Positions 2,647 through 19,012 of a DNA stretch of 64,000 bases are shown here, piece by piece. A model generated the notes under the pieces. The model did not search any database and was not told where the DNA came from. It saw only the letters and a program-made list of their open reading frames with translations. The stretch is from Hallerella succinigenes (GTDB lineage: Bacteria; Fibrobacterota; Fibrobacteria; Fibrobacterales; Fibrobacteraceae), in assembly GCF_002797675.1 (NCBI RefSeq), contig NZ_PGEX01000001.1:1798001-1862000 (forward strand), read 5' to 3'. Positions within the stretch are counted from its first letter, which is position 1. Each line of letters starts with the position of its first letter. A program made the translations under genes and the position numbers.

Positions 2647-3298
2647 TCAACAGCTCCGGATTTCGAACGAGATCAATCATGTAAACAGCATCACTTGGCG
2701 AAACTTTTCGTAAGCCTTCTAGATAGGATTTGCGGGCTGCTGTATCGCGTTCTTTATATTTTGAATAGTACTTCTCTTTTGGTGAAAAAATTGTTTTCAC
2801 AAAGGTGAGACGTTCAAAACTTTTTTTTGATTTCAAAACGGTTTGCAAACCAAGACTGCCAAGTTTCATTGACGAAGCGAGATTTTGCACTGGAATGATG
2901 TTTTCCAGGAAATCGCTTGCAAAAGAGAAATAAGAATCGTTAGCACGATAGCCACGAATGATGTCGTACTGTTGATAATCTAAATGGAAACGGTCTGTTA
3001 AGAATTGCAAGTTCTGTTTTCCGATGGGAGATTTTGGCGAAAAGACCCGGTTTTGCATCAAGATGGTGAGCCAATGGAGTAGATTAAACGGCTCCTGCGA
3101 TAAATCCAAAACATCTAGTCCCTGAGTGTTCAGCTCATACTGGTTAGCATACCCGTCAGTATTCTTTTGACAAGCCCATTCCTTGGCGAGTTCTAGTGAT
3201 TCCGTACAATAAAAACCCTGCCCATAATCGTTTCTCGGGTTGCCTTTGCCCCATTCAGGAGTTGGTATTTGTTTGTCGGAACCATGATATAGAATCAT
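2630..3298 (-). CDS. DUF3990 protein, ADP-ribosyltransferase-like (possible toxin)
   Basis: The 222-residue protein opens with MILYHGSDK and continues with DYGQGFYCTESLELAKEWA, the two signature blocks of DUF3990: YHG plus a GxGFYxT segment then a helix ending in W. This resembles the NAD-binding core of ADP-ribosyltransferase folds, where the first block contributes the His/Tyr-Gly and the second the ST(x)-like strand. It is the first gene of a two-gene unit with the overlapping 152-residue protein. A role as a modifying toxin held in check by its neighbour is inference; the target is unknown. No clear SD is seen before the ATG at 3298. Confidence 0.75.
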   Translation of the reverse strand: MILYHGSDKQIPTPEWGKGNPRNDYGQGFYCTESLELAKEWACQKNTDGYANQYELNTQGLDVLDLSQEPFNLLHWLTILMQNRVFSPKSPIGKQNLQFLTDRFHLDYQQYDIIRGYRANDSYFSFASDFLENIIPVQNLASSMKLGSLGLQTVLKSKKSFERLTFVKTIFSPKEKYYSKYKERDTAARKSYLEGLRKVSPSDAVYMIDLVRNPELLNDLAL

Positions 3299-3396: not shown

Positions 3397-3576
3397 CTAT
3401 CTGCCAAACCAGTAGCGGTGCATTTCTGCCACGAAGTCCCTATCCAGCGGGATTCCGGATGCGTCCGGAAGTACGGAATCGATGAAGCAGTCAGAGCAAA
3501 TCTTCGATCTTTTTACAAGATCTTTGTTGTGGGAAGAAGCCTTGTGCGCGTCACGCAGTTTTTGAATATTTCTCAT
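3397..3576 (-). CDS. Small hypothetical protein, 59 residues, last of three tandem small genes
   Basis: Minus-strand ORF from ATG at 3576 to TAG at 3397-3399. The protein begins MRNIQKLRDAHKASSHNKDL and ends EMHRYWFGR, with a CxxC pair (CSDC) in the middle that could bind a metal or form a disulfide. A clear AAAGGA lies 7 bases before the ATG, and a strong terminator follows the stop, so it looks like a real gene. It starts 18 bases after the stop of the 77-residue gene. The family was not recognised. Confidence 0.6.
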   Translation of the reverse strand: MRNIQKLRDAHKASSHNKDLVKRSKICSDCFIDSVLPDASGIPLDRDFVAEMHRYWFGR

Positions 3577-3594
3577 ATTTTTTCCTTTATGTTG

Positions 3595-3828
3595 TTATTG
3601 AATCCATCCTATATGGATGAGATATTTTCGAAGAAAGCGATTGTACTCCTTGCGGAAATTCGCAAATGCGCGAGAATCGCTAGGGGTGCCTGGAATGATG
3701 AAAAATTTTGAGGACGTTAGATGCTGTAAAATAGGGTGCTTAGAATGACGAGAAAGTCTCCAGCAGCCGCTATTGAGCATCGCGTTGCACATTTCATTGA
3801 TGCGTGAATCTTTTGATAAAGTTTGCAT
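3595..3828 (-). CDS. Small HicA-fold-like protein, 77 residues
   Basis: The ATG at 3828 is preceded by AAAAAAGGAGA, a strong ribosome binding site. The protein follows the pattern of short HicA-like dsRNA-binding-fold proteins: a first helix (INEMCNAMLNSG), then W-x-L-x-R-x-x-K-H, a strand (KFFIIPGTPSD) and a final helix with RAFANFRKEYNRFLRK. The TPSDxRAxxNxR segment is often seen in small phage or TA proteins of this kind. The fold assignment is pattern recognition, not a search result. The catalytic His of true HicA toxins is not securely placed. It sits between two other tiny genes and has no HicB-like partner nearby. Confidence 0.6.
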   Translation of the reverse strand: MQTLSKDSRINEMCNAMLNSGCWRLSRHSKHPILQHLTSSKFFIIPGTPSDSRAFANFRKEYNRFLRKYLIHIGWIQ

Positions 3829-3843
3829 GAATTTTCTCCTTTT

Positions 3844-4008
3844 TTAGAAATTTGGATTTGATAAAGTCCTTGAGCCTTTACGGTCCAAGAACTTTTGAGT
3901 TATCCCGTAGAGGGATTCCCGCTGCGGCCACCGCCGGATTTGTTTCCGGTGCTGGAAGGCCATCCGGCCCTGTTCGGTGATGGGTGGTTGTCCGTTGTGC
4001 TTTGACAT
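3844..4008 (-). CDS. Small basic hypothetical protein, 54 residues, first of three tandem small genes
   Basis: I start this gene at the ATG at 4008 because AAAAGGAGGTAATACCC directly precedes it, the best SD in the area. Longer reading frames reaching 4068-4075 lack such a site. The product is rich in Arg, Lys and Gln (MSKHNGQPPITEQGRMAFQH then RKQIRRWPQRE), so nucleic-acid binding is possible. It ends 15 bases before the next small gene. The three genes form a compact unit ending in a terminator. The family was not recognised. Confidence 0.6.
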   Translation of the reverse strand: MSKHNGQPPITEQGRMAFQHRKQIRRWPQRESLYGITQKFLDRKGSRTLSNPNF

Positions 4009-4227: not shown

Positions 4228-4306
4228 GTTTTGAAATGGCTAAATATGGCGAAAAACTGGCTTTGTGTAAGCGGAACTATATTTAGTAAGAAATATTTTT
4301 CACAAA

Positions 4307-4366
4307 CAAGAAATATTTTTCTTGTTATACTGGGTTTTATGATTTGAAATAGAATGTTATTTCAAA
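4307..4366 (-). terminator. Possible terminator hairpins at the end of the seven-gene operon
   Basis: Two AT-rich perfect inverted repeats follow one another: TTTGAAATA/TATTTCAAA (4343-4351 with 4358-4366), which overlaps the stop codon at 4357, and CAAGAAA/TTTCTTG (4307-4313 with 4318-4324). A direct repeat AAGAAATATTTTTC occurs twice (from about 4289 and 4309). The stems are weak, so efficient termination is uncertain and some read-through into the small genes is possible. Confidence 0.4.
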
Positions 4367-6144
4367 TTACTTTTAAAAGGCTCCCATTTTCCATGAAGTT
4401 TCATATCTTCGTCTTTGAAGAACCATTTTATGGTATTCCCGTTTCTGCTCCAACGACTGTGACAGTTCCGGCACTCGAATAAGAAGTTATTTTCGGTAGA
4501 GCCCTTCGCCCTAGTAGCGTCAGCTTTACAGCAGGGACATTTTTGGATGAGGCTTATTAGGGCGTTCCCGGTCTTGAGAATTTCTATGTCTTCATCGCGG
4601 TTTTTGCGATAGGTACTCAGGTCCCTTTTCTGGATTCTGTCAGTATGCTCTCTTTTATCAACCTGCTTCTTGAATTCATTGTCGTCGTAACAATCGAGCA
4701 GGTATTTACCGTCTAGCATATTGGGGACAAGTTCCTTTATAAATCTATTCTGGGGCACCTTGAACGGATACTGGCACATGAGCATTGCCCAAATCCACTG
4801 GAAAATAATCCTTTGGATTAGGAGTTTTGGGAAGATGGATTGCGGTGCTATGCCCAGTACCATATAGGCTTCGTTGTTTTTGAACATATCATGCAATATG
4901 GTAAAGTTGTCTTCGTCTTCGCTCAGGTAGGGGTTACATTGTGGATATACAAGGACCGATACATCGCCTGTATAGGGGTTAGACTCATTAAGGACGTTGT
5001 CGATATAGCAGCTTGTGGGTTTTGAGGTAACGAAAACAAAGCGCAGCTTTTTGCCGTTTGCTTCTAGTTCAAGGCTGTAGGGTGTTTCTCTATATTCCGG
5101 CTTGATATAGTTCCAGCAATCCCAATCCATGTTTATGGTTCTGAAATCTTCGATGCACCTCTTGACGAATTCTTTTTCGTTGTTCTGCAGCAGGACCTGT
5201 TCTTCTTTTTTTTCTGCTTTAGAAAGGACTTTGATTCGTGCGCGCTTGACCTCTTTCTGTATCTTGGGTAAGTACCGGTAATGTTGGTTGTTCATCAGGA
5301 CGTTTGTCATGATGTCGTGATTGATGTCCACTTCGACGTTGGGAATGATTTTAAGGTTACTGAACAGTAACGTATTCCAAAAGGAGGAGATGACGCGCTG
5401 CAGGTATTTTAAGAAATCAATAGTCCGCTTCAGGAATTCCCTATTCTCCTTGACTTTCTCGATGCTGTATTCCTTGAGTAGGGAACTCAGTTCCGATTCC
5501 ATAGATAAGTAATCTACATAGCTGACTTCTTGGTAATACAATTCTATTTCATAATAGGCGTTGTCGATATTCTTGAGTTTCTGCAATCGCTGGTTTATTA
5601 ACGAAATCAGTATTTTGCAAAGTGTGAACATTAAGCGGTTTTCGTACGTTTCCCATTTGTCGTCCCTGACTAAAGAAAGCAGACGCTGTGGGTGGACTCC
5701 GACAAACGAACGGTTTCTCCAGTCCTCGGAATGCCCTGCCAGATATTCAAGGGCGCGAGATGCGAATTTTTTGACACGGCTAGTTGGCTGCTTTATTTCC
5801 TCTTCCTTCAGGTCAAGAATTGGTCTAGCTACGGCCTCCTTTAGGTGAGTGAGAGGGTCGTTTCGCTTAATTTGTTCAATGTCTTTTTGTAGGAACTTTT
5901 CTAGCTGGTTGCGTTTAAGGTCGTCGGGATTGTTGCACAGCGAAAAGAACGAATCCTTGTCTTCGTCAAGCAGCCGAAATGCGGCAAGGATATCGTTGGT
6001 GATAGGCTCGGATTCCTTGACTTCGATGTCGTCAAAGTGGTAGATGACGTTCCCCTTTTGTGCATCCTCTCTGCTTTGGGCATAGAGGCCTCCGCAATTA
6101 GGGGTGTCAATATTGATATCTTTTTGCAAGAAGATATCGAACAT
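4357..6144 (-). CDS. McrC/DUF2357-like partner protein with C-terminal zinc ribbon
   Basis: The 595-residue product starts at an ATG that overlaps the stop of the McrB-like gene (TAATG), so it is the last gene of the operon and the likely partner of that ATPase. The middle part (FVGVHPQRLLSLVRDDKWE then TYENRLMFTLCKIL) resembles the core of DUF2357/McrC-type proteins, which pair with McrB AAA proteins and often carry a PD-(D/E)XK nuclease. I cannot place the catalytic D-ExK residues securely. The C-terminus has a CPCC (about 535) and CRNC (about 557) zinc ribbon, useful for nucleic-acid binding. The partner role is inferred from position. Confidence 0.6.
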   Translation of the reverse strand: MFDIFLQKDINIDTPNCGGLYAQSREDAQKGNVIYHFDDIEVKESEPITNDILAAFRLLDEDKDSFFSLCNNPDDLKRNQLEKFLQKDIEQIKRNDPLTHLKEAVARPILDLKEEEIKQPTSRVKKFASRALEYLAGHSEDWRNRSFVGVHPQRLLSLVRDDKWETYENRLMFTLCKILISLINQRLQKLKNIDNAYYEIELYYQEVSYVDYLSMESELSSLLKEYSIEKVKENREFLKRTIDFLKYLQRVISSFWNTLLFSNLKIIPNVEVDINHDIMTNVLMNNQHYRYLPKIQKEVKRARIKVLSKAEKKEEQVLLQNNEKEFVKRCIEDFRTINMDWDCWNYIKPEYRETPYSLELEANGKKLRFVFVTSKPTSCYIDNVLNESNPYTGDVSVLVYPQCNPYLSEDEDNFTILHDMFKNNEAYMVLGIAPQSIFPKLLIQRIIFQWIWAMLMCQYPFKVPQNRFIKELVPNMLDGKYLLDCYDDNEFKKQVDKREHTDRIQKRDLSTYRKNRDEDIEILKTGNALISLIQKCPCCKADATRAKGSTENNFLFECRNCHSRWSRNGNTIKWFFKDEDMKLHGKWEPFKSNLK

Positions 6145-8591
6145 TAGGCGACTCGTTCCTTTGCTGCGATGTCCTGGTCAATGAGCCTGATGGTTGCCGA
6201 GTTGTCGTCTAGTTTTATATTTTTTTGAATTTCTTCTTTAAGTTTTACTAGAGAATCATCCTGCACGCCAAATAGACCCGTGATTTTGCCTTTTCGTACA
6301 ATCTTTGTGGCAAGGAGATGGTCTAGAGCGAGTTCTTTGGACCCTCCTGTGGCACAGACCACAGGAACGAAATTCCTGATTTGCCTTTCGAGACGGTTTC
6401 CGAAAGATACATCAAATTCCGACTTTAGTACATCCTTGAGGGAATGCATTTTTTCAGTGACCCAGGCAGCTTGCTGTTCTCCTTCATCTGATTCCTGTGC
6501 TTCGACAAATGCGTTTCTCAAATCCTCGGCGGACCAGTGGGCCGCACCTTGTCTTACCTTTTGGTAGGACGGTTTTTGAGTATTGCGCTCCATCACCATG
6601 ACGTGGGCGCGGTCGTACGTCTTGTCGGCGAATTCCATGGTGGTTTCGTCATGGTTTGCGGTGCCGATAAACCACACGTTGGGAGGAACAATGATTTTTT
6701 CATTTTGGAGGTATTTGGGCCAACGGTCTGATTCCATAGTTTCTTTGGGCATTCCCGAAAGCAGCTCAACTGTTAGGGGATCAAATATGGAGCTATTTGC
6801 TTGCTCCATTGCTGAAATGAAGTCTGCAAAATATTGTTCGGGATGTGACAAGTTCATTTCGTCGAGAATTAGGAAAAATAGGCGGTTTTTGAACTGAGGC
6901 GTAGATGCGGTATAGAGCCCCTTGGAGAAGGTTTTTTCGTAGAACTTCTTTTCGAAGGCATTGTAGTAACCCAGCAAATCCTGGTTGTCGCGCCATCCGG
7001 CCTGAACAGGGATTATGCAGCTACAGGAACCGTTATCCTTCTCTGACTTGCTACCATCGGAATTATCTCCAACGATAGAAGCGAACGCTTGTGCTAATTT
7101 GGTCTTGCCTGTTCCGCTAATACCCTGTAGTAAAATGAGGCGGCTCATGGCTAGGCCACCAACAAACAGTTGCAGAGTTTCGGGTGTATAGAAAAGGTGG
7201 GGCTGATATTGCGTCAACTGGTAGCCGACTGCATTCACGAATTCTTTAAGGTCACCGGAATTTTGGGTGAAACTGATGTATTCGCGGTTGCATCTGCTAT
7301 CGATGTTCTTGAATTCAGCAAAAATGTCCTTATTCTGGTCTTTTGCGGTAAGCTCATCGAGCTCTTTACGCAACTGGTTTTGCGCTTCTTTGAGAGCCGC
7401 GTTGTGCGTTTCCAAAGTTTTATTTAAAGCAATTAAACCTTCTGTGTCTACAATTTTTCTTCGATAATCCATTACCTGTTTAGAGAGCGCATTCTTTTCG
7501 GCGATGGCTGATTCGCATTGGTCTTTGAAACTCTGCAAAGCATCTTCCATCTCCTGCTGGTGTTCCGGGCTCCAGGCAGAATTAAGTTCCAACTTGAGAG
7601 TTGCATTTTTATTGCGAAGATTGTTTATCAACTCCTTGGCCTCTTCGGCACTCATCCCATCGAGCTGTGACTTGATATCCTTGTAGCTCTTTAATTGCTT
7701 TTGCAGGTTCTTATTTTCTTCATTTAAGTCTTTAATTTGATTTTCAAAGGCTTCTTTCTTTTGTGTAAGTCTATTTTCATAATCACGCTGAATATCTTCC
7801 CTGATTTCATCAAATGCCTTTTTCCTGTTTTCATATTCCGTTTTCTCAAGAATGCATTTTTCTTGCTCTTTGCTTAAAGAGGCGAGTTTGTTTTTGTAAT
7901 CTTCAGATTGCTTTTGCAGCGAGTTTCTTGTTGATTCCAGATCTTTATTGAGTTTTTCGGTAATCTCATTTTTCCATTTGGTCTCGTTTGCGATAAAGCC
8001 TGCATCGGCTTCGGCTTCTCTTTGCTTAATCTGAGCTTTAAGCCCTTCTAGGCGTTCGTCTTCTTTTTTGTTTGCGTCTTCTTTTATCTGAGCCTTGCCT
8101 TCTCTGTCAGCGATTTCATTTTCGTTTTCTTTTGCTTTGCGTTCTCTTTCGGTAACTTCGTCTTCACGTTCTTTGACTTTATCTTCTCTACCCTTTAATT
8201 CGCCGTCTTTGGCTTCTTGCTCGTTAGCTGTTTTCCCTAATTCTGCAATTTTAGAGTCATAATCAGTCTTGGCGTTGTCACAATCTTTCTTGGCTATCTT
8301 GTACAAGTCAATTAAATTGTTGAGCTCTGTTTGCAAAGCATTAAGAGTTTCTTTTTCTTCATCGGACAGTTTGTTCTCTAAAGGGATTATTTTTTTGATT
8401 TTATCCAGTATAGAATCCTTGGACACTTTGATTTCCGGCGAAGTGCCATCGGGACTAGAAACGACAGGCGCACTTTCGACGGTGGTCTTTACCGGGGAAA
8501 AAATACTTTTCACATCGGCCGCGCTTATGGGTTCACGACGCTGCGGAGTAGAGGGCTGGTACTTGTTCTTATTTTTGTTTTTCTTGCTCAT
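6144..8591 (-). CDS. McrB-like AAA+ protein with long N-terminal coiled coil
   Basis: The 815-residue protein has a charged N-terminal half, residues about 70-450, with Lys/Glu-rich heptads (KEREDEVTERERKAKENEN) that indicate a long coiled coil. The AAA+ motor follows: Walker A GISGTGKT (about 490), the McrB-type GWRDNQDLLGYYN loop, Walker B LILDEMNLSHPEQYF (about 575) and the sensor FIGTANHDET. In McrBC this motor drives translocation on DNA with its nuclease partner; here it would drive the 595-residue neighbour. The fused coiled coil is unusual for McrB and may scaffold a larger assembly. The start ATGA overlaps the preceding gene's stop. Confidence 0.88.
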   Translation of the reverse strand: MSKKNKNKNKYQPSTPQRREPISAADVKSIFSPVKTTVESAPVVSSPDGTSPEIKVSKDSILDKIKKIIPLENKLSDEEKETLNALQTELNNLIDLYKIAKKDCDNAKTDYDSKIAELGKTANEQEAKDGELKGREDKVKEREDEVTERERKAKENENEIADREGKAQIKEDANKKEDERLEGLKAQIKQREAEADAGFIANETKWKNEITEKLNKDLESTRNSLQKQSEDYKNKLASLSKEQEKCILEKTEYENRKKAFDEIREDIQRDYENRLTQKKEAFENQIKDLNEENKNLQKQLKSYKDIKSQLDGMSAEEAKELINNLRNKNATLKLELNSAWSPEHQQEMEDALQSFKDQCESAIAEKNALSKQVMDYRRKIVDTEGLIALNKTLETHNAALKEAQNQLRKELDELTAKDQNKDIFAEFKNIDSRCNREYISFTQNSGDLKEFVNAVGYQLTQYQPHLFYTPETLQLFVGGLAMSRLILLQGISGTGKTKLAQAFASIVGDNSDGSKSEKDNGSCSCIIPVQAGWRDNQDLLGYYNAFEKKFYEKTFSKGLYTASTPQFKNRLFFLILDEMNLSHPEQYFADFISAMEQANSSIFDPLTVELLSGMPKETMESDRWPKYLQNEKIIVPPNVWFIGTANHDETTMEFADKTYDRAHVMVMERNTQKPSYQKVRQGAAHWSAEDLRNAFVEAQESDEGEQQAAWVTEKMHSLKDVLKSEFDVSFGNRLERQIRNFVPVVCATGGSKELALDHLLATKIVRKGKITGLFGVQDDSLVKLKEEIQKNIKLDDNSATIRLIDQDIAAKERVA

Positions 8592-10036
8592 TTGTAGGCC
8601 TCGTGTAAAATATTCAACTGTTTTTCAATTCTGTTGTAAATGTCATTGTAGGGATACGGAATGGTTTTTCTGTTCGCGTTAAAATGGTCGTAGATGTTGC
8701 GCGTGTCTACCAGTTCAAGAATGAATTTAAGGTCATCGCTCAATGATTTATTTTTTACCAGTCTTGCCGTAAACCAAGCTAGTGAGTTTTGGGGATGATA
8801 AAGGTAAAAGATAAGATGCCTAATGAGTAGCGATTTTAGTGAGGGTTTCAATCGAGTCATGTTCCCCCATACATCATCATTTGTTAATTTTTTCTTAATG
8901 TTTTCATCCAGCTTTAGATTGCGTATCTTTAGGCCGCCTTCCAAATAGTAATGACGGTCTTGATCTTTTTTGAATGCAACCTTTTTGAGTTCGTCATTAA
9001 AGGGCGTATTCCTTGTCCTAAGGATGCTTTCGTACATATTTTGCATTCTAGTAAGGAATGCGTCGCCTAGATCAAACGAGTTGTCTGTATCGTCGGCAAG
9101 AATGTCTTTTAAAACAAAGAATCTGCAAATTTCAATAATAATGTCTTCCTCAAAATGTGGATATCTGCCTTGAATACGGTCTTGAAGCGTAATGGGAATC
9201 TCTATTGATTTAATTCCTAAAAAAGCTCCCATTTTTTCATTCTGTTCTAGGGCTGTATCTAGTTCGTTTTTGAGGAACTCCATTGGAATTTTGGATTGTT
9301 CTTCTAGCATGTCGATGCATTGAAAGTCTTCGCCTTCAGAAATCTTTTTGACCTGGACAAGCAGAAAATTGCATATATCAGGTTCTTGGTTCCGCTTCTC
9401 AATAGAAATTATTTTATCGGGTTGTTCAATGTAGCTTGACTTTATGTCATTGTAGTCGGACAAGGCAATATCGCAGTCAATTTGCTGGTATTCCTTCCAC
9501 ATATTGTAAATGTCTTCTTCCGAAATGTCTGTTGAGTTTTCTCTAATTTTGTTGGTGCGTGGGTACACAACAAACGGCTTGATGTTGCAGGGCATGCCCT
9601 TGGACCCGCCGGCAATTGTGATTCCTTTTTCGTTTTGTTGGTAATCAATGGACGTGAGTTCCCCATTCATTAAGGGGTGAGGAATTAATTGTCCCGTCAA
9701 CATAGATTGTAGCACTACGATTCGCTTCTTCTTGATTTTGGTCTCTGTACTGGAGACGACTTCTGGTATGTGCCACTTGTCAATCCCTTTTGTGACGTTC
9801 TGCTTGAGGTCGTGTTCAAGAATGTAACGAATTAGGGCTTCATCCAGGTTGGTCAATTCGTGGAGTTCTTGAACAGTCTTGTCTCCGGTCAGGAGAAAGT
9901 TTATGATCAGATCCGAAAAAAAGTTTTCGGGGATATTTGCTTCTGCTACCAGAATATCCCATACAACGACAGGCAAGGTGAAATAATCTCCCTTGGAGAG
10001 TTCACTTGAATTGCAAAATAAATTAGCAATTTCCAT
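8588..10036 (-). CDS. Operon protein with N-terminal winged helix and C-terminal HEPN-like motif
   Basis: I start it at the ATG at 10036, one base after the helicase stop and behind GAGGAAAAATAAT, giving 482 residues; an upstream in-frame start overlaps the helicase gene. Residues about 30-90 look like a winged helix (INFLLTGDKTVQELHELTNL). The C-terminal 100 residues are helical, and RNIYDH near residue 447 fits the RNxxxH active-site motif of HEPN RNases, followed by a typical amphipathic last helix. No family name was recognised for the whole protein. RNase activity is inference. The 3' end overlaps the McrB-like gene by ATGA. Confidence 0.6.
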   Translation of the reverse strand: MEIANLFCNSSELSKGDYFTLPVVVWDILVAEANIPENFFSDLIINFLLTGDKTVQELHELTNLDEALIRYILEHDLKQNVTKGIDKWHIPEVVSSTETKIKKKRIVVLQSMLTGQLIPHPLMNGELTSIDYQQNEKGITIAGGSKGMPCNIKPFVVYPRTNKIRENSTDISEEDIYNMWKEYQQIDCDIALSDYNDIKSSYIEQPDKIISIEKRNQEPDICNFLLVQVKKISEGEDFQCIDMLEEQSKIPMEFLKNELDTALEQNEKMGAFLGIKSIEIPITLQDRIQGRYPHFEEDIIIEICRFFVLKDILADDTDNSFDLGDAFLTRMQNMYESILRTRNTPFNDELKKVAFKKDQDRHYYLEGGLKIRNLKLDENIKKKLTNDDVWGNMTRLKPSLKSLLIRHLIFYLYHPQNSLAWFTARLVKNKSLSDDLKFILELVDTRNIYDHFNANRKTIPYPYNDIYNRIEKQLNILHEAYK

Positions 10037-10037
10037 A

Positions 10038-13000
10038 TTATTTTTCCTCGTCTGCAAGTTTAATAAATTCTTTTAATGCGGGAACTTCCTCTTGTGCTTT
10101 TTCTGTTTCATACATTTTTCTATTTCCTACAACCACGAGAAGTTTCTTTTGACGCGAAAATGCGACGTTCAGGCGGTTTTCCGATTTTAGGAACCCGAAG
10201 ATGTTTCTGTCGTTGCTACGAACGACGGAGAAGAACACGATATCGAATTGTCGACCTTGGAAGGCGTCGATAGATCCGATTTCTAGTTGTTTGCTGTCAA
10301 TTTTTTTCTTGAGTTCTGCGTCTGACTTAGCAATTTTATCAATGAGTCGTGTTTGTGCACTGTATGAGGCAATAACACCAATAGTTTCGTCAGTTTCCTT
10401 GATAATTTCCTTTATGCGCTTAATAATTAGCTCAGCTTCAGCCTCGTTCGTTTTGCTTATTTTTCCAGATTCCTTGCTATCGACATTTTCCCAAACCGCA
10501 CACTTGCAATCTCCATTTTTCTTAGTGTATCTTGAAACATGATGAATGCAGTCATTGGGATTTTTGCCGGTTTGAATATGTGTCTCGTCTCCGTAAAAAT
10601 TTCGACTTACAAAGTCGCTTAGTTTTTGCGGCATACGATATTGAGTGTCGAGAGTTACCGTGCGTACAATGCCATCATTTCGTTCTGTTTTTAAATAATC
10701 CCATAAAGATTCGAATAGAGACTTTTCCATAAAGCCCTTCAATTCTTCGAACCGTTCCCTAGAATCATTGCTGGATTCCATTTGCTCTAGAATATCTTGA
10801 TTAACAAGTTGGGGGAGCTGCTTGTGGTCGCCTACTAGTATAACTTTTTTTCGGGCTAAGGTGATGGGTATGAATAGATCAAGAGGATTTGCTCGAGCGG
10901 CTTCATCGATGATGACGTAATCAAACTCAAAGTTTTTCTTACCAAGAAGCCTTACAAAAGATTCACTTTTTGATTGCTGTACTGTTGCCGCATAGGTCAT
11001 GGCGTAACGGAGCATCGCGTTTCTGATGGATTTGAATTTGACATTCTCCTTATAGCCGTTTAAAACAATCAGTTTTTGTAGGTCGGTTTGCCTGATGCGT
11101 TCTTTGATGTTGGGCTCGATGGTCGTGTCAATATAATTCTTTAGACTTGTGAACAGATGATTGTCAAAGGAATCCGTTGGATTGGGTACCATTTGCTCAA
11201 TGCACTTGTTTCTGAGTTCTTCAATCCAGTCAAGGTCATTTTGGCTAGGATTGGAGTTCGCTAGTTTCTTTAGCTGATCATACCCTTTTTCCAGGGCGTA
11301 ACAATTCAAGGAATTCTTGCGTAAATCGTAGTATTCCAACACTCGCTCGATCATTCTCTTGCCGTCGTCATTGTATCCCGTGTTGGTTGTTCTTAATCCC
11401 ATTAGGCATTGGTAGAATTTATTGTTTATTTGCTTGACTTGGAATTTCTTTTTGAGTTCCTTAAGAGTATCCACTTCTGACGGAGAAAGGATGCTGTTTG
11501 TGACGGCAAGATTGATGATTTCTTGTAGTAGGTTTCGTATTTCGTAAGAAGAGCTTGCAGCGCTTAGTGCATTAAGGCTTATTTGCAATTTTTCGTATTC
11601 GATGTACTGCGAGTCGGACTGTAACTTATTTATCTGTTCGTCAATTTTTTTTGCGGTATCTTCTTGCCATTTCTGGAGTCCTCTGAAGATTTGTTCCTTG
11701 TCCTTTTGTTCACCATAAAAGCGAAATACGGGAAGTCCCCAAATTGAGCTTCCGTCAGCCACATTATCAACAGCTACATGTTGGAAACCTGTCAGCAATA
11801 TGCTAGGCATTTTTTCGGGATGCTTTGGGTCTATCGATTGTAGATATTTTTGTAATGCGTTGATAACGCTGGTCTTTCCTGTTCCGGGAGGTCCTTGGAT
11901 AAGGGCTATGTCAGGTGTGCTCAGACAAACCTTTAGTGCTCTTTTTTGTGCTTCATAGGGTTTTCTGTTACCGAATGCCGCTTCAATTTTTAGGTCATTC
12001 AGCCTTTTGGGAATGGCTGCGGAACCGAAGGCGGGAAGCGTCGTTTTATTTAAAATGTCTGTAATAGATGCAATGGGAATGTTGCGTGTTCGGATATTTT
12101 CTAGTGCTGCTGTTCTGCGGTTGGATGCTATAGACCATGGTTTAAAATCTATGGCGAATCCCTCAAGTTCTAGCTTTTCGCTATTGTCATATTTAGGTTT
12201 TCTTTCGCCCCATTTCCAGGAAACTGTTCTTGTTTTCTCGTCAATCCGTTCGTCGCAAATATTGTAACTCTTACGTTTCGAGAAAACGTAGATGGAATAA
12301 GAATTCTTTTGATTGGCGTTCAGCTGATCGTATATGTTCTTGAAATTTTCTATTTCTTCGGATTTGTTTTGAAGTGTTGCGCTACAGTTTTCTCCTTTGG
12401 CTGTTATCTTTTCGATGCGAAGGATGCCAGACTGGATTTTATAATCTTCCAGCATCTTTGCGTCAACCTGATTATACTTTTCCCAAAGGTTTATGATGGA
12501 GTTTGGGTCTGCTGCTTGCTTAGCTAACTGTGCATTCAAAATGGGATCGCTTACGATGACTTCTTGTTCTGATACGAATCGAATGTGTGCAATCCCTTTT
12601 TGTACATTCAATTTTTTTTGAGGAGACTTTTTTAGATTGCTGACAAAGAGATACTCCTTGCCATCTACCTTCTTACTTTCGATATTTGCAACATAATTGC
12701 ATCCGAGCCATCCTCCTTCCAAATTTGACGTATTGCTCAGAATTCTAAAAAATAAGTACGAATTTTCAGTGGTTTGGAAAAGAAACTCTTTTTTGAACCA
12801 TTCAAGTGCCTGTTCTGTTTCTTTAAAACCATGTTTCTTAGTGACTTCTATGAGCCTGTAGGTTGGAATGACGATGCAGCATGTCTGTTCGGTGTTTCCT
12901 ATAATGGTCGGTCCGCCAAAATCCCACTTGTTTAGGGTCACCTCGTATTTTTTTTCTGCTTGTTTTACGGAATCTACAATGTAGAGTGACTCCTGATTGT

Positions 13001-13184
13001 ATGGATGTGAATTTTGTGGCCAGAATATCCTTTCTGGATGATTGTAGTTTTTGAAATATCCGCTTGGGGTGAATTCCAAAACATCGTGTTTGGCGATTTC
13101 GAATTTTCCGTCATTGTCAAATATGGCGTCTATGACTTGTGCCGAAGAATTGCATGCAATGATATTCAGTTGCTCGTTATTCAT
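10038..13184 (-). CDS. UPF1/DNA2-like superfamily 1 helicase
   Basis: The 1048-residue protein carries all main SF1 motifs: Walker A ALIQGPPGTGKTSVI (about 431), DEAA box FDYVIIDEAARANPLDLF (about 760), VGDHKQLPQL (motif III), LDTQYRMP (motif IV), SIDAFQGRQFDIVFFS (motif V) and RLNVAFSRQKK (motif VI). The first 400 residues form a separate domain not recognised. By family it would unwind or remodel DNA, RNA or RNA-DNA hybrids with ATP. It starts at an ATG overlapping the kinase stop (ATGA). SF1 helicases have been noted next to TerY-P kinase/phosphatase triads, consistent with a nucleic-acid-processing role. Confidence 0.9.
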   Translation of the reverse strand: MNNEQLNIIACNSSAQVIDAIFDNDGKFEIAKHDVLEFTPSGYFKNYNHPERIFWPQNSHPYNQESLYIVDSVKQAEKKYEVTLNKWDFGGPTIIGNTEQTCCIVIPTYRLIEVTKKHGFKETEQALEWFKKEFLFQTTENSYLFFRILSNTSNLEGGWLGCNYVANIESKKVDGKEYLFVSNLKKSPQKKLNVQKGIAHIRFVSEQEVIVSDPILNAQLAKQAADPNSIINLWEKYNQVDAKMLEDYKIQSGILRIEKITAKGENCSATLQNKSEEIENFKNIYDQLNANQKNSYSIYVFSKRKSYNICDERIDEKTRTVSWKWGERKPKYDNSEKLELEGFAIDFKPWSIASNRRTAALENIRTRNIPIASITDILNKTTLPAFGSAAIPKRLNDLKIEAAFGNRKPYEAQKRALKVCLSTPDIALIQGPPGTGKTSVINALQKYLQSIDPKHPEKMPSILLTGFQHVAVDNVADGSSIWGLPVFRFYGEQKDKEQIFRGLQKWQEDTAKKIDEQINKLQSDSQYIEYEKLQISLNALSAASSSYEIRNLLQEIINLAVTNSILSPSEVDTLKELKKKFQVKQINNKFYQCLMGLRTTNTGYNDDGKRMIERVLEYYDLRKNSLNCYALEKGYDQLKKLANSNPSQNDLDWIEELRNKCIEQMVPNPTDSFDNHLFTSLKNYIDTTIEPNIKERIRQTDLQKLIVLNGYKENVKFKSIRNAMLRYAMTYAATVQQSKSESFVRLLGKKNFEFDYVIIDEAARANPLDLFIPITLARKKVILVGDHKQLPQLVNQDILEQMESSNDSRERFEELKGFMEKSLFESLWDYLKTERNDGIVRTVTLDTQYRMPQKLSDFVSRNFYGDETHIQTGKNPNDCIHHVSRYTKKNGDCKCAVWENVDSKESGKISKTNEAEAELIIKRIKEIIKETDETIGVIASYSAQTRLIDKIAKSDAELKKKIDSKQLEIGSIDAFQGRQFDIVFFSVVRSNDRNIFGFLKSENRLNVAFSRQKKLLVVVGNRKMYETEKAQEEVPALKEFIKLADEEK

Positions 13185-14626
13185 TCTTCACCCCAGTATT
13201 TGAATAGGATGACGCTCCTGAATTTCAAGGGATCGTTTTCTTTGGAATCATCATGTATAATGTTTGTTCGTGTGTATTCGGGGAAAAGAATTTGGTACTG
13301 TTTGCCTTCCTTGACGTCGATAAGGAGGGATATCCCCTTTTTTAGGGTGCAGCTTTTCGTGGTTTTTTCTTTGGGGATGTTTAATGTAACCTTCAGCTCC
13401 TTCTGATCGGTCAGTAGTATGCTCAGTTGCTGCTTGGATACGTTGAATGATGCTTCGATGTTGGCCGATTTGGTTTCTGCTATGGGAATGTTCATTAGGG
13501 TGGATGTATCCTCTAGCAGATACGCGGGATGGCTGAAACCTGTGTCTTGAATTTTGTTCCCTGCAAGAATGGTATTGAGTATAAGAATATATGGAGTATG
13601 TGATTCTTTGTCGCAAAACGGACATTCATGCTTCTTGCTGACTTTGATATAATGCTTTCCGCAATTCTTGCATTTCATAAAAGATGTTTCGCCTATTCGA
13701 AGCGTCTCAATCCATTCAAATAGGGCGGGCCTTGTCAAAAAACTTTTTTCACCGGAAAAAGTCCTTTTGAAAAGACTCTGTAGCATTTCTGTTTCCAAAA
13801 GATTGCGGAGAGCCGATGATTTGCCTGTGTTGTCTTTGTCCATGTCGTCAATAAAGGGAAGATCCGATTCCTCCTCTTTTTTTCCCATGGTGGATATTTC
13901 CATGGTTGCAGCATCGGTTACGAGTTTGCCGTGGAACGGCAACTCTTGTCGTAGAGTAAAGAATGCTATGACTGCAAAACTCCATGTGTCGCTCAAGGGC
14001 GTGTTGAACTTATGTTCTCTTACAACTTCAGGAGCGGAGAATCCTTTGAATGCAATAGAATCGTTGAAGTCGGCGGCAATGACCATGTTGTCACAGTCAA
14101 TTAATTGAACTTCATTATATTCTGTATTGCTTGAAATAAAAACATTATTAGGATTTAAGTCTCCGTAACAGTATCCTACGGAATGAATTTGTTCAAGAAT
14201 TTCAGCAAGCTTCCGCAAAAGTGTGTAGATGCGGCGGATGCCACCTAGTCGATCAAGATATAAAGCAAATGATTCGTTTTTTTTGCATTGAAGACTGCTT
14301 AACGAAACCATGTCTTCCATTAGTTCCATGACGTAACCATAGAAGATTTTGCCTCCTTTTTCTATAGGCTTGATTTCGTTTAGAGGCTTTGCGATATAGT
14401 CGGGCAAATCGATTCTAGAACGAAGATTCCTGTAGCGTCTATAGACTGTTTCCTGATTGAAGCCTTTTGAAGTGTAGCTCAGTTTGACGAGTAAGTTAGT
14501 CCGCTGGGTCTTATATACGGCTCCTTGGCCACCTTCACCGATGCATTCTTTTAGTTCGAAAATGCCTGCACTTTCGGTTTCAACATTAGTGATTTTATTT
14601 TGCTTTACAATTTCGTCTGTAAACAT
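13181..14626 (-). CDS. Ser/Thr protein kinase with C-terminal zinc ribbon (TerY-P kinase)
   Basis: The 481-residue protein has a kinase domain in its first 290 residues: glycine loop GEGGQGAVYKT, ATP-anchoring lysine in LLVKLSY, catalytic loop YCYGDLNPNNVFIS (HRD replaced by YGD, with the Asp and Asn kept), metal-binding Asp in LIDCDN (DFG changed to DCD), and SAPEVV. A zinc ribbon CKNCGKHY/CPFCDK follows at about 320-340, then a beta-rich tail. This layout is that of the kinase in TerY-P triads, where it is opposed by the PP2C phosphatase encoded just upstream. The gap to that gene is 6 bases and GAAGGTGA serves as SD. Confidence 0.9.
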   Translation of the reverse strand: MFTDEIVKQNKITNVETESAGIFELKECIGEGGQGAVYKTQRTNLLVKLSYTSKGFNQETVYRRYRNLRSRIDLPDYIAKPLNEIKPIEKGGKIFYGYVMELMEDMVSLSSLQCKKNESFALYLDRLGGIRRIYTLLRKLAEILEQIHSVGYCYGDLNPNNVFISSNTEYNEVQLIDCDNMVIAADFNDSIAFKGFSAPEVVREHKFNTPLSDTWSFAVIAFFTLRQELPFHGKLVTDAATMEISTMGKKEEESDLPFIDDMDKDNTGKSSALRNLLETEMLQSLFKRTFSGEKSFLTRPALFEWIETLRIGETSFMKCKNCGKHYIKVSKKHECPFCDKESHTPYILILNTILAGNKIQDTGFSHPAYLLEDTSTLMNIPIAETKSANIEASFNVSKQQLSILLTDQKELKVTLNIPKEKTTKSCTLKKGISLLIDVKEGKQYQILFPEYTRTNIIHDDSKENDPLKFRSVILFKYWGEE

Positions 14627-14632
14627 AATTAG

Positions 14633-15358
14633 TCACCTTCGTTCAATGACGACGATTGTCTTATCGTCTATGTGGTGTTGGGTTGGCCAATGAATCAATT
14701 CGTTTGTAAGTTCTTTTTGCGCTTGTTTTTTTGAACTTTTGAGAAAAATATCAAATGTGGAAACAAAATTTTCGATTGCCTCTGGTAAAATATCTTCGCT
14801 AATGCCGTCGGTCATCATGAGTAGTCGATCTTTTGATGAGGATAGGTCAATTTTGTTCATTCGCCAAAGGGGAGAAATGTCATAGTTTCCCATAGCGGAT
14901 GTTTCATTGCCGAAACCATTTTTATTATCTGCGAATACGTTGATTTTTTCATTGTGTTTTACAAGAGTCATTCCGTCGCCCAATTGGGCCAACCATCCCT
15001 TACCTTTGCTATTTATGATAGCTAGTTGGCAAGTGCTGCCGCACTTGTCTGCTCCATACTTGCGCGAATACATCAACCAATGACAATGCAGTAATCTTAG
15101 AAAATCTGTAAGATCGTGTGGCTTGATTTGATTCCATTCTTTAAAGCATGGAGTGAATAGCTTGCATAAAGTTTTTGCCCCGTAATCGCTGTGGGCGTGG
15201 GAGCCTAAACCGTCACAGACCATCACTAAAAGAAATTTACCAACAAAGCCGATGAACGTACTGTCTTGGTTTGGAATGTTCTCTCTGATGTGTCCGGGAC
15301 CACGTGCTGAGGCTTGGATATATTTCCATTTGCAACGAGTGAAAAATTCTGTAAGCAA
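14633..15358 (-). CDS. PP2C-family protein phosphatase (TerY-P phosphatase)
   Basis: The 241-residue protein shows the PP2C metal and catalytic motifs in order: VMVCDGLGSH (metal-binding DG), AQLGDGMTLV, LLMMTDGISE and, near the end, IDDKT. The start is most likely the TTG at 15358, behind GAGGAC and 2 bases after the vWA gene stop; no better ATG exists before the conserved N-terminal WKYIQASARGPGH block. It would remove phosphates placed by the kinase encoded next, with the vWA protein as the third member of the triad. It is cytoplasmic, with no signal or membrane segment. Confidence 0.9.
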   Translation of the reverse strand: MLTEFFTRCKWKYIQASARGPGHIRENIPNQDSTFIGFVGKFLLVMVCDGLGSHAHSDYGAKTLCKLFTPCFKEWNQIKPHDLTDFLRLLHCHWLMYSRKYGADKCGSTCQLAIINSKGKGWLAQLGDGMTLVKHNEKINVFADNKNGFGNETSAMGNYDISPLWRMNKIDLSSSKDRLLMMTDGISEDILPEAIENFVSTFDIFLKSSKKQAQKELTNELIHWPTQHHIDDKTIVVIERR

Positions 15359-15360
15359 AT

Positions 15361-16071
15361 TTAGTCCTCGTCAAATAGCTCTTTAACGTTTTCAGAAAGG
15401 CTGATGATATCGTTTGGGGCTATTTCGCCTGGCTTGGCGGATTGGGAACTTTTGATTGCGGACATGGTAACGCATTTGAAAAATTTTTGTATTTCAATGG
15501 CGTTGTTCGCCTTAAAAATGGGCATTTCTTCGTTGTTTACGAACTTTTTCAGCATGCTTTCGTCTGCGTCCGCGCCAATGGCGAGGGCGAGTCGATTTGC
15601 TTTTTTACTTCTTTCGTTATTAAGAAGCCTATCTAATGGTTGTTGCCAAAGGTCGTTAGGCATTCCGTCGGATGCTAAAACGATGAAAGGACGATATGCG
15701 CGGGAAGGGTAGATTTCTCTATTTTCTAGCAAATCAACAAGGCTAGTCAAAGCTTTGCCGAGAGGTGTGTCGCCTATAGCTTGCATTTTGTTAATGACGT
15801 TCATTTTAGAAGGATCATTGGCTATTTCACTAGCTGATTGTGGTTCCAAAATGATGTTTGCGGCTTGGTTGCCGAACGTTATGATTGAAACGTATATTTC
15901 AGCTTCTAGAGCTGACGATGAAGCGTCTTTGAATGAACTGATCATGTTATTCAAAGCGTGCTTTAACGAATCTAATTTTCCGATTTCATTCATACTGCCA
16001 CTTACGTCCGCAAGAATGATTACGGGAAGTGGACGAGATTGGATGCTTACGACGGTATCGAATACACTCAT
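15361..16071 (-). CDS. TerY-like von Willebrand A domain protein
   Basis: The 236-residue protein is almost entirely one vWA domain with a full metal-ion-dependent adhesion site: DVSGS (about residue 20), the Thr of GDTPLGKAL, and ASDGMPND. This matches TerY-type cytoplasmic vWA proteins. It is the first gene of the operon and has a strong SD (AAGGAG) 8 bases before the ATG. Its 5' end lies about 65 bases downstream of the start site expected from the sigma-54 promoter. In TerY-P systems vWA, PP2C and kinase act as a phosphorylation switch; that function is inference from the family. Confidence 0.9.
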   Translation of the reverse strand: MSVFDTVVSIQSRPLPVIILADVSGSMNEIGKLDSLKHALNNMISSFKDASSSALEAEIYVSIITFGNQAANIILEPQSASEIANDPSKMNVINKMQAIGDTPLGKALTSLVDLLENREIYPSRAYRPFIVLASDGMPNDLWQQPLDRLLNNERSKKANRLALAIGADADESMLKKFVNNEEMPIFKANNAIEIQKFFKCVTMSAIKSSQSAKPGEIAPNDIISLSENVKELFDED

Positions 16072-16148
16072 GATATACTCCTTTGTGTGACTATATACAT
16101 TTTTTACAAACGATGTATGCGGTTAAATGTGTTTTCTTTGGAAGTCTG

Positions 16149-16165
16149 TGCAAAAATTGTGCCAA
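16149..16165 (-). promoter_or_regulatory. Sigma-54 promoter of the seven-gene operon
   Basis: The minus strand reads TTGGCACAATTTTTGCA, a perfect TGGCAC-N5-TTGCA element: GG at 16163-16162 and GC at 16151-16150 with 10 bases between. Transcription should start near 16138 and run into the vWA gene at 16071. The divergent gene encodes a sigma-54 activator, so promoter and activator fit one another. Confidence 0.85.
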
Positions 16166-16190
16166 GTTTATGAATGTGGTTTTTGTAGCG

Positions 16191-16254
16191 TTTTTCGTGT
16201 TTTAAATATCAAGAATGCGAAAAGTTTTTCTTATTTATATAAAAATTTTTCGTA
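16191..16254. promoter_or_regulatory. Candidate activator-binding repeats upstream of the sigma-54 promoter
   Basis: TTTTTCG occurs at 16191-16197 and 16246-16252 and its complement CGAAAA at 16218-16223. A small palindrome GAAAA-GT-TTTTC spans 16219-16230. These lie 25-90 bases upstream of the -24 element, where enhancer sites of sigma-54 activators usually sit. The region is AT-rich, so the repeats may be incidental. Confidence 0.3.
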
Positions 16255-16267
16255 TATTCCAATTGAT

Positions 16268-17686
16268 ATGAAAACGAAAATCACATTGCTTACTTGGATG
16301 GCCGTCAATAATGATCCTAGTGCTTTAGAGTCTTTATTGAAAAAGTTGGGTCAGAAATATGACGTTGAAAAGGTTATATACCTTTATCAAAAAGAATATG
16401 TGGAAAAGTTGAAAGAAGTACAACCGCTTAGTTCAGCTATAAATCCGGTAGAGGTGAATGTCAAGAATCCGACTGCACATAAAGAGATTTATGAGATTAT
16501 AAAGCGAGAAATTCTCCCGATGGTGAATGATGAACCAAATTTGTTCATCAATGTCTCTTCGGGTACGCCGGCGATGCATGCTGTTTGGATTATTTTATAT
16601 GCTGGAGGCGTTTTCCCTGAAGGAACACAATTACTGTCCTCACAAATAAATCGAAAGACGGGAGCAACGACTTGTGACAAGGTTGATTTCCCGATTGATA
16701 CGTATTTAAGTGAACTCCGTCGATATGAAAGGGAAAACCCGAAAGAGGCTATTTATAAACCTGAGTCTGTAAAATCAGAAGCTCGTAAAAAGGCTTTAGA
16801 GCAAATTCGTGTTTTCGCGAGCGTTCAAGGCGTGCCGATGCTTTTGCTGGGAGAACGCGGCATTGGCAAAAGCCGTTTGGTTGAATCTGTTGTTTCTAAG
16901 ATTAAGAAAAAAGAAGTGGTTTCGGTAGCCTGTGGAACGTTGGATTCTAATTTGGCTGAATCTGCGATGTTTGGTCATAAAAAAGGTTCTTTTACTGGTG
17001 CTACGGCTGACAAAAAGGGCTATTTTGGAGAGGCTGACGGTAAAATTCTTTTTCTGGATGAAATTCAGGATTTGCCGAAAGGTGTACAACGCAAGTTGCT
17101 TCGAACATTGCAAGACAAAAAACATCGCTATCGCATTTTGGGCGATGACAAGGAATCTACGGCGGATGTGGAACTTGTCTGTGCATCAAATTTGACAGAA
17201 AAGGAACTTCGTCAAAAACTGGATCCTGATTTTTATGATCGAATTAGCTTCTATACCGTGAATATACCGCCTTTGCGGGAATGTCGTGAAGATATTGTGG
17301 GGGACTGGAATGAAGTGTGGAAGACAGTCCGGTTGGATAGCTCTCCTAAGGACGCTCCCATGGATAAGTATCTTGAAAAATATTTTAGGACTTCCAGGTT
17401 GTCTGGAAATTTCCGAACATTGCAGTCGGTTGCTTACCAGTTTATAGCATGGAATGGCAAAAAGACGATTGCGGAAATCCTGAAAGATCTTCCTGCGGAT
17501 GACTCTTCGAATGGAACTTTTGATATTGGGGAATTTTCAGAATTCCAAAACTTGACTTGGAAAGAGGCTACCAAGCTTTTCCAGCAAAAACTTGCTGAGT
17601 ATTCGTGCGAAAAATATGGAACTCAAGAAGCTGCGGCTCAAAAGCTTGATTGTACCTCAAAGACTTTGCAAAATGCGATGAAGTGA
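16268..17686 (+). CDS. CARF-domain sigma-54-dependent activator (RtcR-like)
   Basis: I use the ATG at 16268 (472 residues); an earlier in-frame ATG at 16127 would add 47 residues of low-complexity sequence across the promoter. Residues 1-150 form a CARF-like Rossmann domain with the hallmark NVSSGTPAMHAVW (about 94-106), the ligand loop seen in Csm6/Csx1 and RtcR. The AAA+ domain follows: Walker A GERGIGKS (about 195), the sigma-54-contacting loop GSFTGAT (about 240) and Walker B ILFLDEIQD. The end is a HTH (TQEAAAQKLDCTSKTLQNAM). It should activate the divergent operon when its CARF domain binds a cyclic oligonucleotide or 2',3'-cyclic-phosphate RNA; the ligand is unknown. Confidence 0.88.
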   Translation: MKTKITLLTWMAVNNDPSALESLLKKLGQKYDVEKVIYLYQKEYVEKLKEVQPLSSAINPVEVNVKNPTAHKEIYEIIKREILPMVNDEPNLFINVSSGTPAMHAVWIILYAGGVFPEGTQLLSSQINRKTGATTCDKVDFPIDTYLSELRRYERENPKEAIYKPESVKSEARKKALEQIRVFASVQGVPMLLLGERGIGKSRLVESVVSKIKKKEVVSVACGTLDSNLAESAMFGHKKGSFTGATADKKGYFGEADGKILFLDEIQDLPKGVQRKLLRTLQDKKHRYRILGDDKESTADVELVCASNLTEKELRQKLDPDFYDRISFYTVNIPPLRECREDIVGDWNEVWKTVRLDSSPKDAPMDKYLEKYFRTSRLSGNFRTLQSVAYQFIAWNGKKTIAEILKDLPADDSSNGTFDIGEFSEFQNLTWKEATKLFQQKLAEYSCEKYGTQEAAAQKLDCTSKTLQNAMK

Positions 17687-17701: not shown

Positions 17702-18997
17702 TCACCTGATCATAAACACAGCATAAAGTGGGACAGACTTGATTCCGTTTTCAATGCCGAAATTCTTTGCGGATATCCGGATGCTGTAGGGCGATTTGTG
17801 TTTTGAAACAAAGCTTTTGAGACTTTGTGATTTGTTGTGAGTTGACGACTTGACTTCAATGGGAATGATTTTGTTTTTTAGCCGAACGATGAAATCAATT
17901 TCGTTTTGATTGTTCTCGTTCCAGTAATACGTTTCTAGATGGTTGGCTTTTAATTGCGTATAAACGTAATTTTCAACAAGACCGCCTTTGAAGTCGTTGA
18001 ATAACGGATTCTCGTAGACGACGTCATCGTACGTGGCGTTTTGCGATGCACAACACAGGCCAACGTCGCTCATGTACAGCTTAAAATCAGAGTCGGATGC
18101 GTTTGCCTTGAACGGTAATGCCATATGCTCGAGGCGGGCAACTTTAGATGCGATTCCGGCAAGGGTAATCCATTCGAGTGCGTTTTCAAATTCGCTAGCT
18201 CGTGCGCCGGGCTTTAATCCTCTGTATTGGAATTTCTTGTTTTCCTTAGCGAGTTGTTTTCCTATGCTTGCGTAGACGAGTCGGGTCTTGGCAATTTCGC
18301 TTTGCTTGTTGTATTTGCTCATGTCATTTTGATAAGCCGCGAGAATGTCGTTCTTGATGATGTCCGTTTGGAGAGGATTATGATTTTGAACAAAGTTGCT
18401 GACTGCGGCGGGCATGCCTCCGACAAAAAGATATTCCCTATAGGCTTCTAAAGCCTTTTTGTGCAAAGCTTCTTCGAGCGGCTTGTTTTTTGCATAGCAT
18501 TCCTTGATTTGCTCAAGGAGAAAATTTTCTTCGCGTGCGGTTAAAAATTCTTCGAAATCCAGCGGGTGCATATCTATGATTTCAACCTTGCCGACAGGGA
18601 AGGAATACTGGTTTCGATTGACGGCAACTCCGAGGAGCGACCCCAATGCAATGATGTGGATGTCCGGAGCTTCTTCGCAAAAATATTTGAGCGATGTGAG
18701 CGCTTCGGGGCAGGCCTGCACTTCGTCGAAAATGACGAGAGTTTCGCGAGGAATCACTTTTTTTTGCTTGATGGCGGACAGTCTAGGCAAAATGTGGCTT
18801 GGTGCCAAGTTTGAAAAAATGGAGGAAAGGTCGGGGTCTCGTTCGAAGTTGCAGTAAATCACGTCGGAGTAATATTTTGCCCCGAATTCGGTGACGGAGT
18901 ATGTTTTCCCGGTCTGGCGTGCCCCTTGGAGAATCAGTGGCTTGCGTGACGGAGAATTCTTCCATTCAATCAATTTTTCGATGATTTTGCGTTCCAT
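17702..18997 (-). CDS. AAA_14/DUF4143 ATPase
   Basis: The product (432 residues from the ATG at 18997; an ATG at 19012 is also possible) has the AAA_14 motor at its N-terminus, PLILQGARQTGKTYSV (Walker A, about 20-35) and LVIFDEVQACPEALTSLKYF (Walker B), and a C-terminal DUF4143 domain with the restriction-like stretch NEIDFIVRLKNKIIPIEVKS. That D-(x)-ExK pattern suggests a nuclease-fold domain. Such ATPases are very common accessory genes in gut anaerobes and their function is not established. It is convergent with the CARF regulator (15-base gap) and is probably unrelated to it. Confidence 0.88.
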   Translation of the reverse strand: MERKIIEKLIEWKNSPSRKPLILQGARQTGKTYSVTEFGAKYYSDVIYCNFERDPDLSSIFSNLAPSHILPRLSAIKQKKVIPRETLVIFDEVQACPEALTSLKYFCEEAPDIHIIALGSLLGVAVNRNQYSFPVGKVEIIDMHPLDFEEFLTAREENFLLEQIKECYAKNKPLEEALHKKALEAYREYLFVGGMPAAVSNFVQNHNPLQTDIIKNDILAAYQNDMSKYNKQSEIAKTRLVYASIGKQLAKENKKFQYRGLKPGARASEFENALEWITLAGIASKVARLEHMALPFKANASDSDFKLYMSDVGLCCASQNATYDDVVYENPLFNDFKGGLVENYVYTQLKANHLETYYWNENNQNEIDFIVRLKNKIIPIEVKSSTHNKSQSLKSFVSKHKSPYSIRISAKNFGIENGIKSVPLYAVFMIR

Positions 18998-19012
18998 ATT
19001 AAAAATATACAT

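Follow-up and report, generated by a model that had tools for sequence, protein, structure and literature searches.

Organization of the locus

The window, a stretch of 64,000 nucleotides from the Hallerella succinigenes genome, contains a seven-gene operon and a divergent gene for a regulatory protein, with a promoter element and a predicted enhancer in the gap between them. The features are listed by window position, with the strand in brackets:

16071-4357 (-): seven-gene operon, divergent from the activator gene
15361-16071 (-): TerY-like VWA protein, first gene of the operon
14633-15358 (-): PP2C-type phosphatase of the TerY-P triad
13181-14626 (-): Ser/Thr kinase of the TerY-P triad with a C-terminal zinc ribbon (Pkinase match over the cut-off; zinc ribbon weak)
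10038-13184 (-): CnuH-like, UPF1/IGHMBP2-like SF1 helicase (IGHMBP2 family E=1.5e-48, below the equivalog cut-off)
8588-10057 (-): CnuE-like effector with a single C-terminal HEPN-type RxxxxH motif (RNIYDH; Pfam HEPN match weak)
6144-8591 (-): CnuB-like protein with a long predicted coiled coil and a McrB-like NTPase with an NxDE motif (GTANHDETT)
4357-6144 (-): CnuC-position protein of 595 aa with a C-terminal CxCC...CxxC zinc ribbon, McrC-like by place
16268-17686 (+): activator of the RtcR_PspF1 subfamily, with a CARF sensor, an AAA+ sigma-54 activator domain and a C-terminal HTH
16164-16149 (-): P1, sigma-54 -24/-12 element TGGCACAATTTTTGCA, with an expected transcription start at 16138; kept at the orthologous locus
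16215-16255 (-): predicted P1 enhancer (UAS), two imperfect 16-bp palindromes 21 bp apart (ACGAAAAATTTTTATA / AAGAAAAACTTTTCGC)

Judged by the sequences of its products, the operon most likely encodes a Type II CoCoNuT together with a TerY-P triad, a predicted anti-phage system with a putative defensive role. R453 and H458 of the CnuE-like HEPN-type motif were invariant across four genomes, and the NxDE motif was invariant in six CnuB-like proteins. The kinship of the CnuB-like protein to McrB is by motif and context (its Pfam AAA_5 match is only weak), and its coiled coil was judged from the sequence. The zinc-ribbon cysteines of the CnuC-position protein are conserved; McrC homology of this protein was not shown by Pfam (no DUF2357 match), a PDB profile search, hhalign (uninformative) or AF2 (low-confidence model).

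The activator matched the PADLOC RtcR_PspF1 CARF_AAA_HTH model over residues 3-472 (E=4e-172) and the sigma-54 interaction domain PF00158 (E=5e-38). Because it reached only 188 of the 650 bits required by the NCBIfam RtcR equivalog, we regard it as an RtcR-like protein and not as RtcR itself. Its AAA+ domain has a Walker A motif (GERGIGKS) and an L1 loop that reads GSFTGA instead of GAFTGA; we counted this substitution against the sigma-54 reading, and it recurs in three relatives with intact sites. A search of phages for the activator found none, and viral contigs yielded one partial match. Adjoining the activator gene is a gene for an AAA_14-DUF4143 ATPase (17702-19012, (-); PADLOC candidate PDC-S01, E=2e-171), and similar genes lie near several other loci.

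P1 is a complete sigma-54 promoter element

P1 (TGGCAC-AATTT-TTGCA, 16 bases), which lies in the gap separating the activator gene from the operon, is a complete -24/-12 element. Its GG at 16163/16162 and GC at 16151/16150 give N10 spacing, and its weighted score is 19.8 bits (maximum possible 20.6). The element lies 77 bases from the first ATG of the operon (16071) and 103 bases from the divergent activator ATG (16268), and the predicted start is ~66 bases from the operon ATG. An earlier, sequence-only reading had described a TGGCAC-N5-TTGCA element with GG-N10-GC spacing ahead of the operon, and we found it complete on the minus strand. The range given there, 16149-16165, was one base too long, since the element occupies 16149-16164. 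Its placement about 65 bases ahead of the first gene holds for the leader, from predicted start to ATG, but not for the distance of the site itself. The expected start at 16138 was obtained again from the GG/GC positions, and the GG-N10-GC bases survive in the corresponding gap of an orthologous locus, a gap that is otherwise largely diverged, as well as at the other close CARF-activator loci.

The same reading held that a complete match in so short a gap was unlikely to arise by chance, and the counts bear this out. Allowing up to two mismatches, a scan of the window gave 42 matches against 29.6 ± 5.8 expected, of which only two were exact; the other exact match, at 61736 (+), falls within overlapping ORFs and has no enhancer, and was therefore taken as chance. 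Across the whole 3.13-Mb genome, the consensus had 17 exact matches and the reversed-pattern control 4, which makes the chance occurrence of P1 in such a gap improbable. Four control matches in 6.25 Mb correspond to a probability of ~1e-4 for one exact match per 200-bp gap.

The genome has the machinery to use such an element. The rpoN gene, whose presence the sequence-only reading had asked to have confirmed, was found (E=3e-55), together with about eight clear sigma-54 activators. Most of the other exact sites that lie ahead of gene starts have plausible targets (GroES, DnaK, ClpB, PII), and the consensus is therefore one that this organism really uses. We conclude that P1 is almost certainly a real, switchable promoter.

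The exact sites elsewhere in the genome deserve a description of their own. Those at loci L017, L020 and L023-L028 lie 20-125 bases before genes for GroES, DnaK, ClpB, HtpG-like and small heat-shock-like proteins, PII, a sigma-70-family factor or a glutamine-synthetase-like protein. Much of the organism's heat-shock set thus appears to be run on sigma-54; in Bacteroidota, chaperones are reported to be under sigma-54 control (PMC12316311). One further exact site (L018, G000:C1:515911-515926) lies 256 bases before a gene for a small protein that, judged by eye, looks like TIR-type defence proteins (RTYNLFISHSW...); its first 60 residues had no match in Pfam.

A paired palindrome marks promoters of the CARF-activator family

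The predicted P1 enhancer lies ~50-90 bp upstream of the -24 box and ends ~13 bp before the activator ATG. Close activator loci of the family share this pair of palindromes ahead of their sigma-54 sites, and at one of these loci (L055) both palindromes are perfect. The tandem palindrome scored 27.8, and the shuffled maximum was 17.8.

Because the palindrome was first noticed by eye at these same loci, we used two independent tests, and only the held-out search and the controls count as independent support. The tandem palindrome was absent from the genome's other exact sigma-54 sites. A model of the enhancer built from other genomes only was then run on the 3.13-Mb genome; its top three places were P1, the second promoter described below (P2) and the promoter of a paralogous activator. 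These three had E values of 3e-4 to 1.4e-3 and were the only ones at or below 0.0015, the next being 0.02. In 284 kb of locus sequence, the enhancer accompanied 15 of 17 strong sigma-54 sites; at L057 the sigma-54 site is strong and the enhancer is absent.

In relatives on Proteobacterial plasmids (helicase, hypothetical protein, PLD, activator), the AT-rich palindrome is absent. Two Vibrio plasmids have a weaker TGGCA[CT]-N5-TTGAT ~54 bases before the first gene and other palindromes, which is suggestive only. On the plasmid of Vibrio aerogenes (L133), the set of helicase, hypothetical protein, PLD and CARF-activator lies beside a type III-B CRISPR locus with Cas10, and it is possible that this Cas10 is the source of the CARF ligand there.

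The promoter and enhancer occur with the activator

Orthologues of the operon that differ in the presence of the activator serve as natural controls. Where the VWA orthologue lies next to a member of the activator family, both the sigma-54 site and the enhancer were present (4/4 genomes); where there was no activator match, neither element was found (0/5), even though two of these five keep the same seven genes in order (Fisher probability 0.008 for the split). The sequence-only reading had tied the activator to the operon from the position of the promoter. Two further findings bear out that link: the paired palindrome is confined to activator loci, and operons without an activator gene have neither element. 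The reading is right both on the promoter and on its connection to the activator.

Activator, sensor domain and cargo have not always travelled together. The activator at L049 (L049:9986-11413) is 95-98% identical to the window protein in its AAA and HTH parts and only 52% in its CARF domain; it is chimeric, with a CARF from another lineage (85% to that of L053). At one locus the activator is 93% identical and the CoCoNuT proteins only 24-39%, whereas at another the cargo is 71-81% identical and the activator 63%. Other cargoes at activator loci include helicase-wHTH-PLD and TerY-P-like sets. These mismatched identities show a reshuffling of the sensor, the DNA-binding part and the cargo against a constant promoter and enhancer; in related bacteria, the same switch is coupled to other defence genes.

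A second predicted promoter precedes a small-gene cassette

A second sigma-54 element lies just beyond the far end of the operon and is directed away from it:

4225-4210 (-): P2, sigma-54 element TGGCGCGCATTTTGCT, with an expected start at ~4199; in the same place in L052 at 15937 (+)
4287-4323 (-): predicted P2 enhancer, AAGAAAAATATTTCTT and a second copy 20 bp on
3890-4008 (-): remnant of a gene for a 37-aa GWPSTTGxKSGGGRG peptide, split here by a frameshift
3595-3828 (-): HicA-like small protein, 77 aa, intact
3397-3576 (-): small cysteine-motif protein, shortened here by an internal in-frame deletion; L105 has an intact relative

The orthologous locus L052 is arranged alike, and at four other loci P1 and P2 stand back to back with one common enhancer. 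The sequence-only reading contained neither this second promoter of the same regulon nor a name for the system.

A frameshift disrupts the peptide (MSKHNGQPP..GWPSTTG.KSGGGRGGNPPKG), and the cysteine-motif protein lacks part of its CxxC region, which leaves the HicA-like gene as the one undamaged member of the three behind P2; we counted this damage against the mechanism proposed below. The cassette (3397-4008) is decaying here; an intact version occupies the syntenic position in a sister genome (L105), where neither a CoCoNuT nor a sigma-54 site is present. A DUF3990 protein (2630-3298, (-); PF13151 E=4e-43) is encoded directly after the cassette.

The model of the HicA-like protein (AF2 mean pLDDT 89.6) has an alpha-beta-beta-beta-alpha order. 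HicA chains recur among its best structure matches, at a weak level (Z 4.2 to a HicA toxin chain), and Pfam HicA (PF07927) matched the L052 copy at E=0.0014, below the cut-off, and did not match the window copy. Unlike HicA toxins (PF07927), the protein has a longer C-terminal helix, and no HicB partner was seen. The cassette recurs at activator loci, yet homologues of the protein occur in 31 of 167 genomes of the phylum, mostly with no sigma-54 site in front, so that the cassette is not confined to the CARF-activator regulon. Searches of plasmids for the GWPSTT peptide and the HicA-like protein gave no match.

An Rfam scan of the window returned nothing at gathering thresholds. The P2 leader folds slightly more stably than its shuffled versions (z -2.7), but no conserved relative was found and we make no claim of a structured RNA.

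Proposed mechanism and alternatives

Taken with the site, the enhancer, the genome-wide specificity of both and their co-occurrence with the activator, we consider it very likely that P1 is a sigma-54 promoter at which RtcR-like dimers on the paired palindromes, given a CARF signal, switch on both the P1 operon and the P2 cassette, with probable self-limitation. Activator dimers would bind the two palindromes 21 bp apart upstream of P1, and the CARF domain would respond to infection or RNA damage through a nucleotide or RNA-end signal, phage being the presumed inducer. The AAA+ ring would then open the sigma-54 polymerase complex at two promoters: at P1, which would activate the TerY-P/CoCoNuT operon, and at P2, which would do the same for the putatively defensive cassette with the HicA-like protein. 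Because the enhancer covers the start region of the activator gene, in this divergent layout the activator probably limits its own synthesis (auto-repression); at loci where the P1 operon ends with the activator gene, the result would be positive feedback. Escherichia coli RtcR requires RtcAB for activity (PMC9650030), and neither rtcA nor rtcB was detected in this genome, so that the ligand logic of E. coli RtcR is not simply transferable and signalling must take another path.

A low constitutive promoter near the first gene could act beside the inducible P1, providing a guard level that is boosted on demand. We hold this addition, which is compatible with the CARF-activated mechanism, to be possible but tentative. 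A ATGTATATA-like stretch ~25 bases before the ATG is common to operons with and without the activator (one without), and this conserved stretch could be part of a further promoter; however, no -35 box of the sigma-70 type was recognisable before the first gene.

P1 might instead be worked by another of the roughly eight activators, with the divergent gene acting elsewhere. One candidate is the paralogous CARF activator (G000:C1:2689439-2690812), whose HTH region is 70% identical to that of the window activator and whose promoter has the same enhancer, making cross-activation likely. However, the local activator gene lies ~13 bp from the P1 enhancer, and across genomes the element co-occurs with an adjacent or co-operonic activator; we therefore think it unlikely that another activator, and not the local one, works P1. 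The paralogue (L048, L060) has its own sigma-54 promoter, and its targets are two small proteins, one with a cysteine motif and one coiled-coil-like, with no large defence operon.

That P1 is a chance match, and that transcription of the operon begins at an ordinary promoter of the sigma-70 type closer to its first gene, is very improbable: orthologous operons elsewhere do manage without sigma-54, and several have the ATGTATATA-like stretch before the first gene, but no sigma-70-like pair was found in the region 15900-16400, the chance rate per gap is low, and element and enhancer stand at all close activator loci and are gone where the activator is gone.

Returning to the CARF-activated switch, a broader reading may be offered with some reserve. 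The Fibrobacteraceae CARF-sigma-54 switch might be a portable control module, in which one enhancer type and interchangeable activators with a swappable sensor drive two outputs at once: a large defence operon of variable content (Type II or III-A CoCoNuT, helicase-PLD, TerY-P) and, apart from it, a cassette of HicA-like and glycine-rich small proteins that acts as a second, dose-sensitive arm or a built-in toxin/immunity element. We regard this as possible, though on balance it may well not hold.

Comparison with known systems

The published suggestion that RtcR homologues may switch on CoCoNuTs is here turned into exact, testable promoter and enhancer coordinates and extended to a regulon of three promoters in one genome with an added small-gene unit. 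The sister operons without the switch provide natural controls, and a reporter for P1 or P2 would directly reveal what the CARF domain senses in the absence of RtcAB.

As in the RtcR-rtcBA RNA repair operon of E. coli and Salmonella (PMC9650030, PMC7790460), a CARF sensor is joined to a sigma-54 activator that has an upstream activating sequence; unlike that operon, the target here is a predicted nuclease defence operon and not RNA repair. The closest likeness is to the CoCoNuT systems and their frequent association with RtcR homologues (Bell et al. 2024; PMC11090510), as far as the available part of that paper describes them. Common to both are a CARF-AAA-HTH RtcR homologue with an operon of TerY-P, CnuH, CnuE, CnuB and a protein in the CnuC position, an NxD GTPase motif and one HEPN RxxxxH motif; in the same part, the authors state that the TerY-P triad is not a core CoCoNuT feature and propose that the HTH of the RtcR homologue binds an upstream activating sequence. 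The systems described there have the activator upstream in the same direction, whereas here it is divergent; no -24/-12 elements or binding sites are given in that part, whereas both, as predicted from sequence, are located here; and where that paper reports BrnT-like toxin genes, we find P2 with its HicA-like cassette. Systems of this kind are already known, and the new details are the divergent layout, the mapped predicted enhancer, the three-promoter regulon and the small-gene arm.
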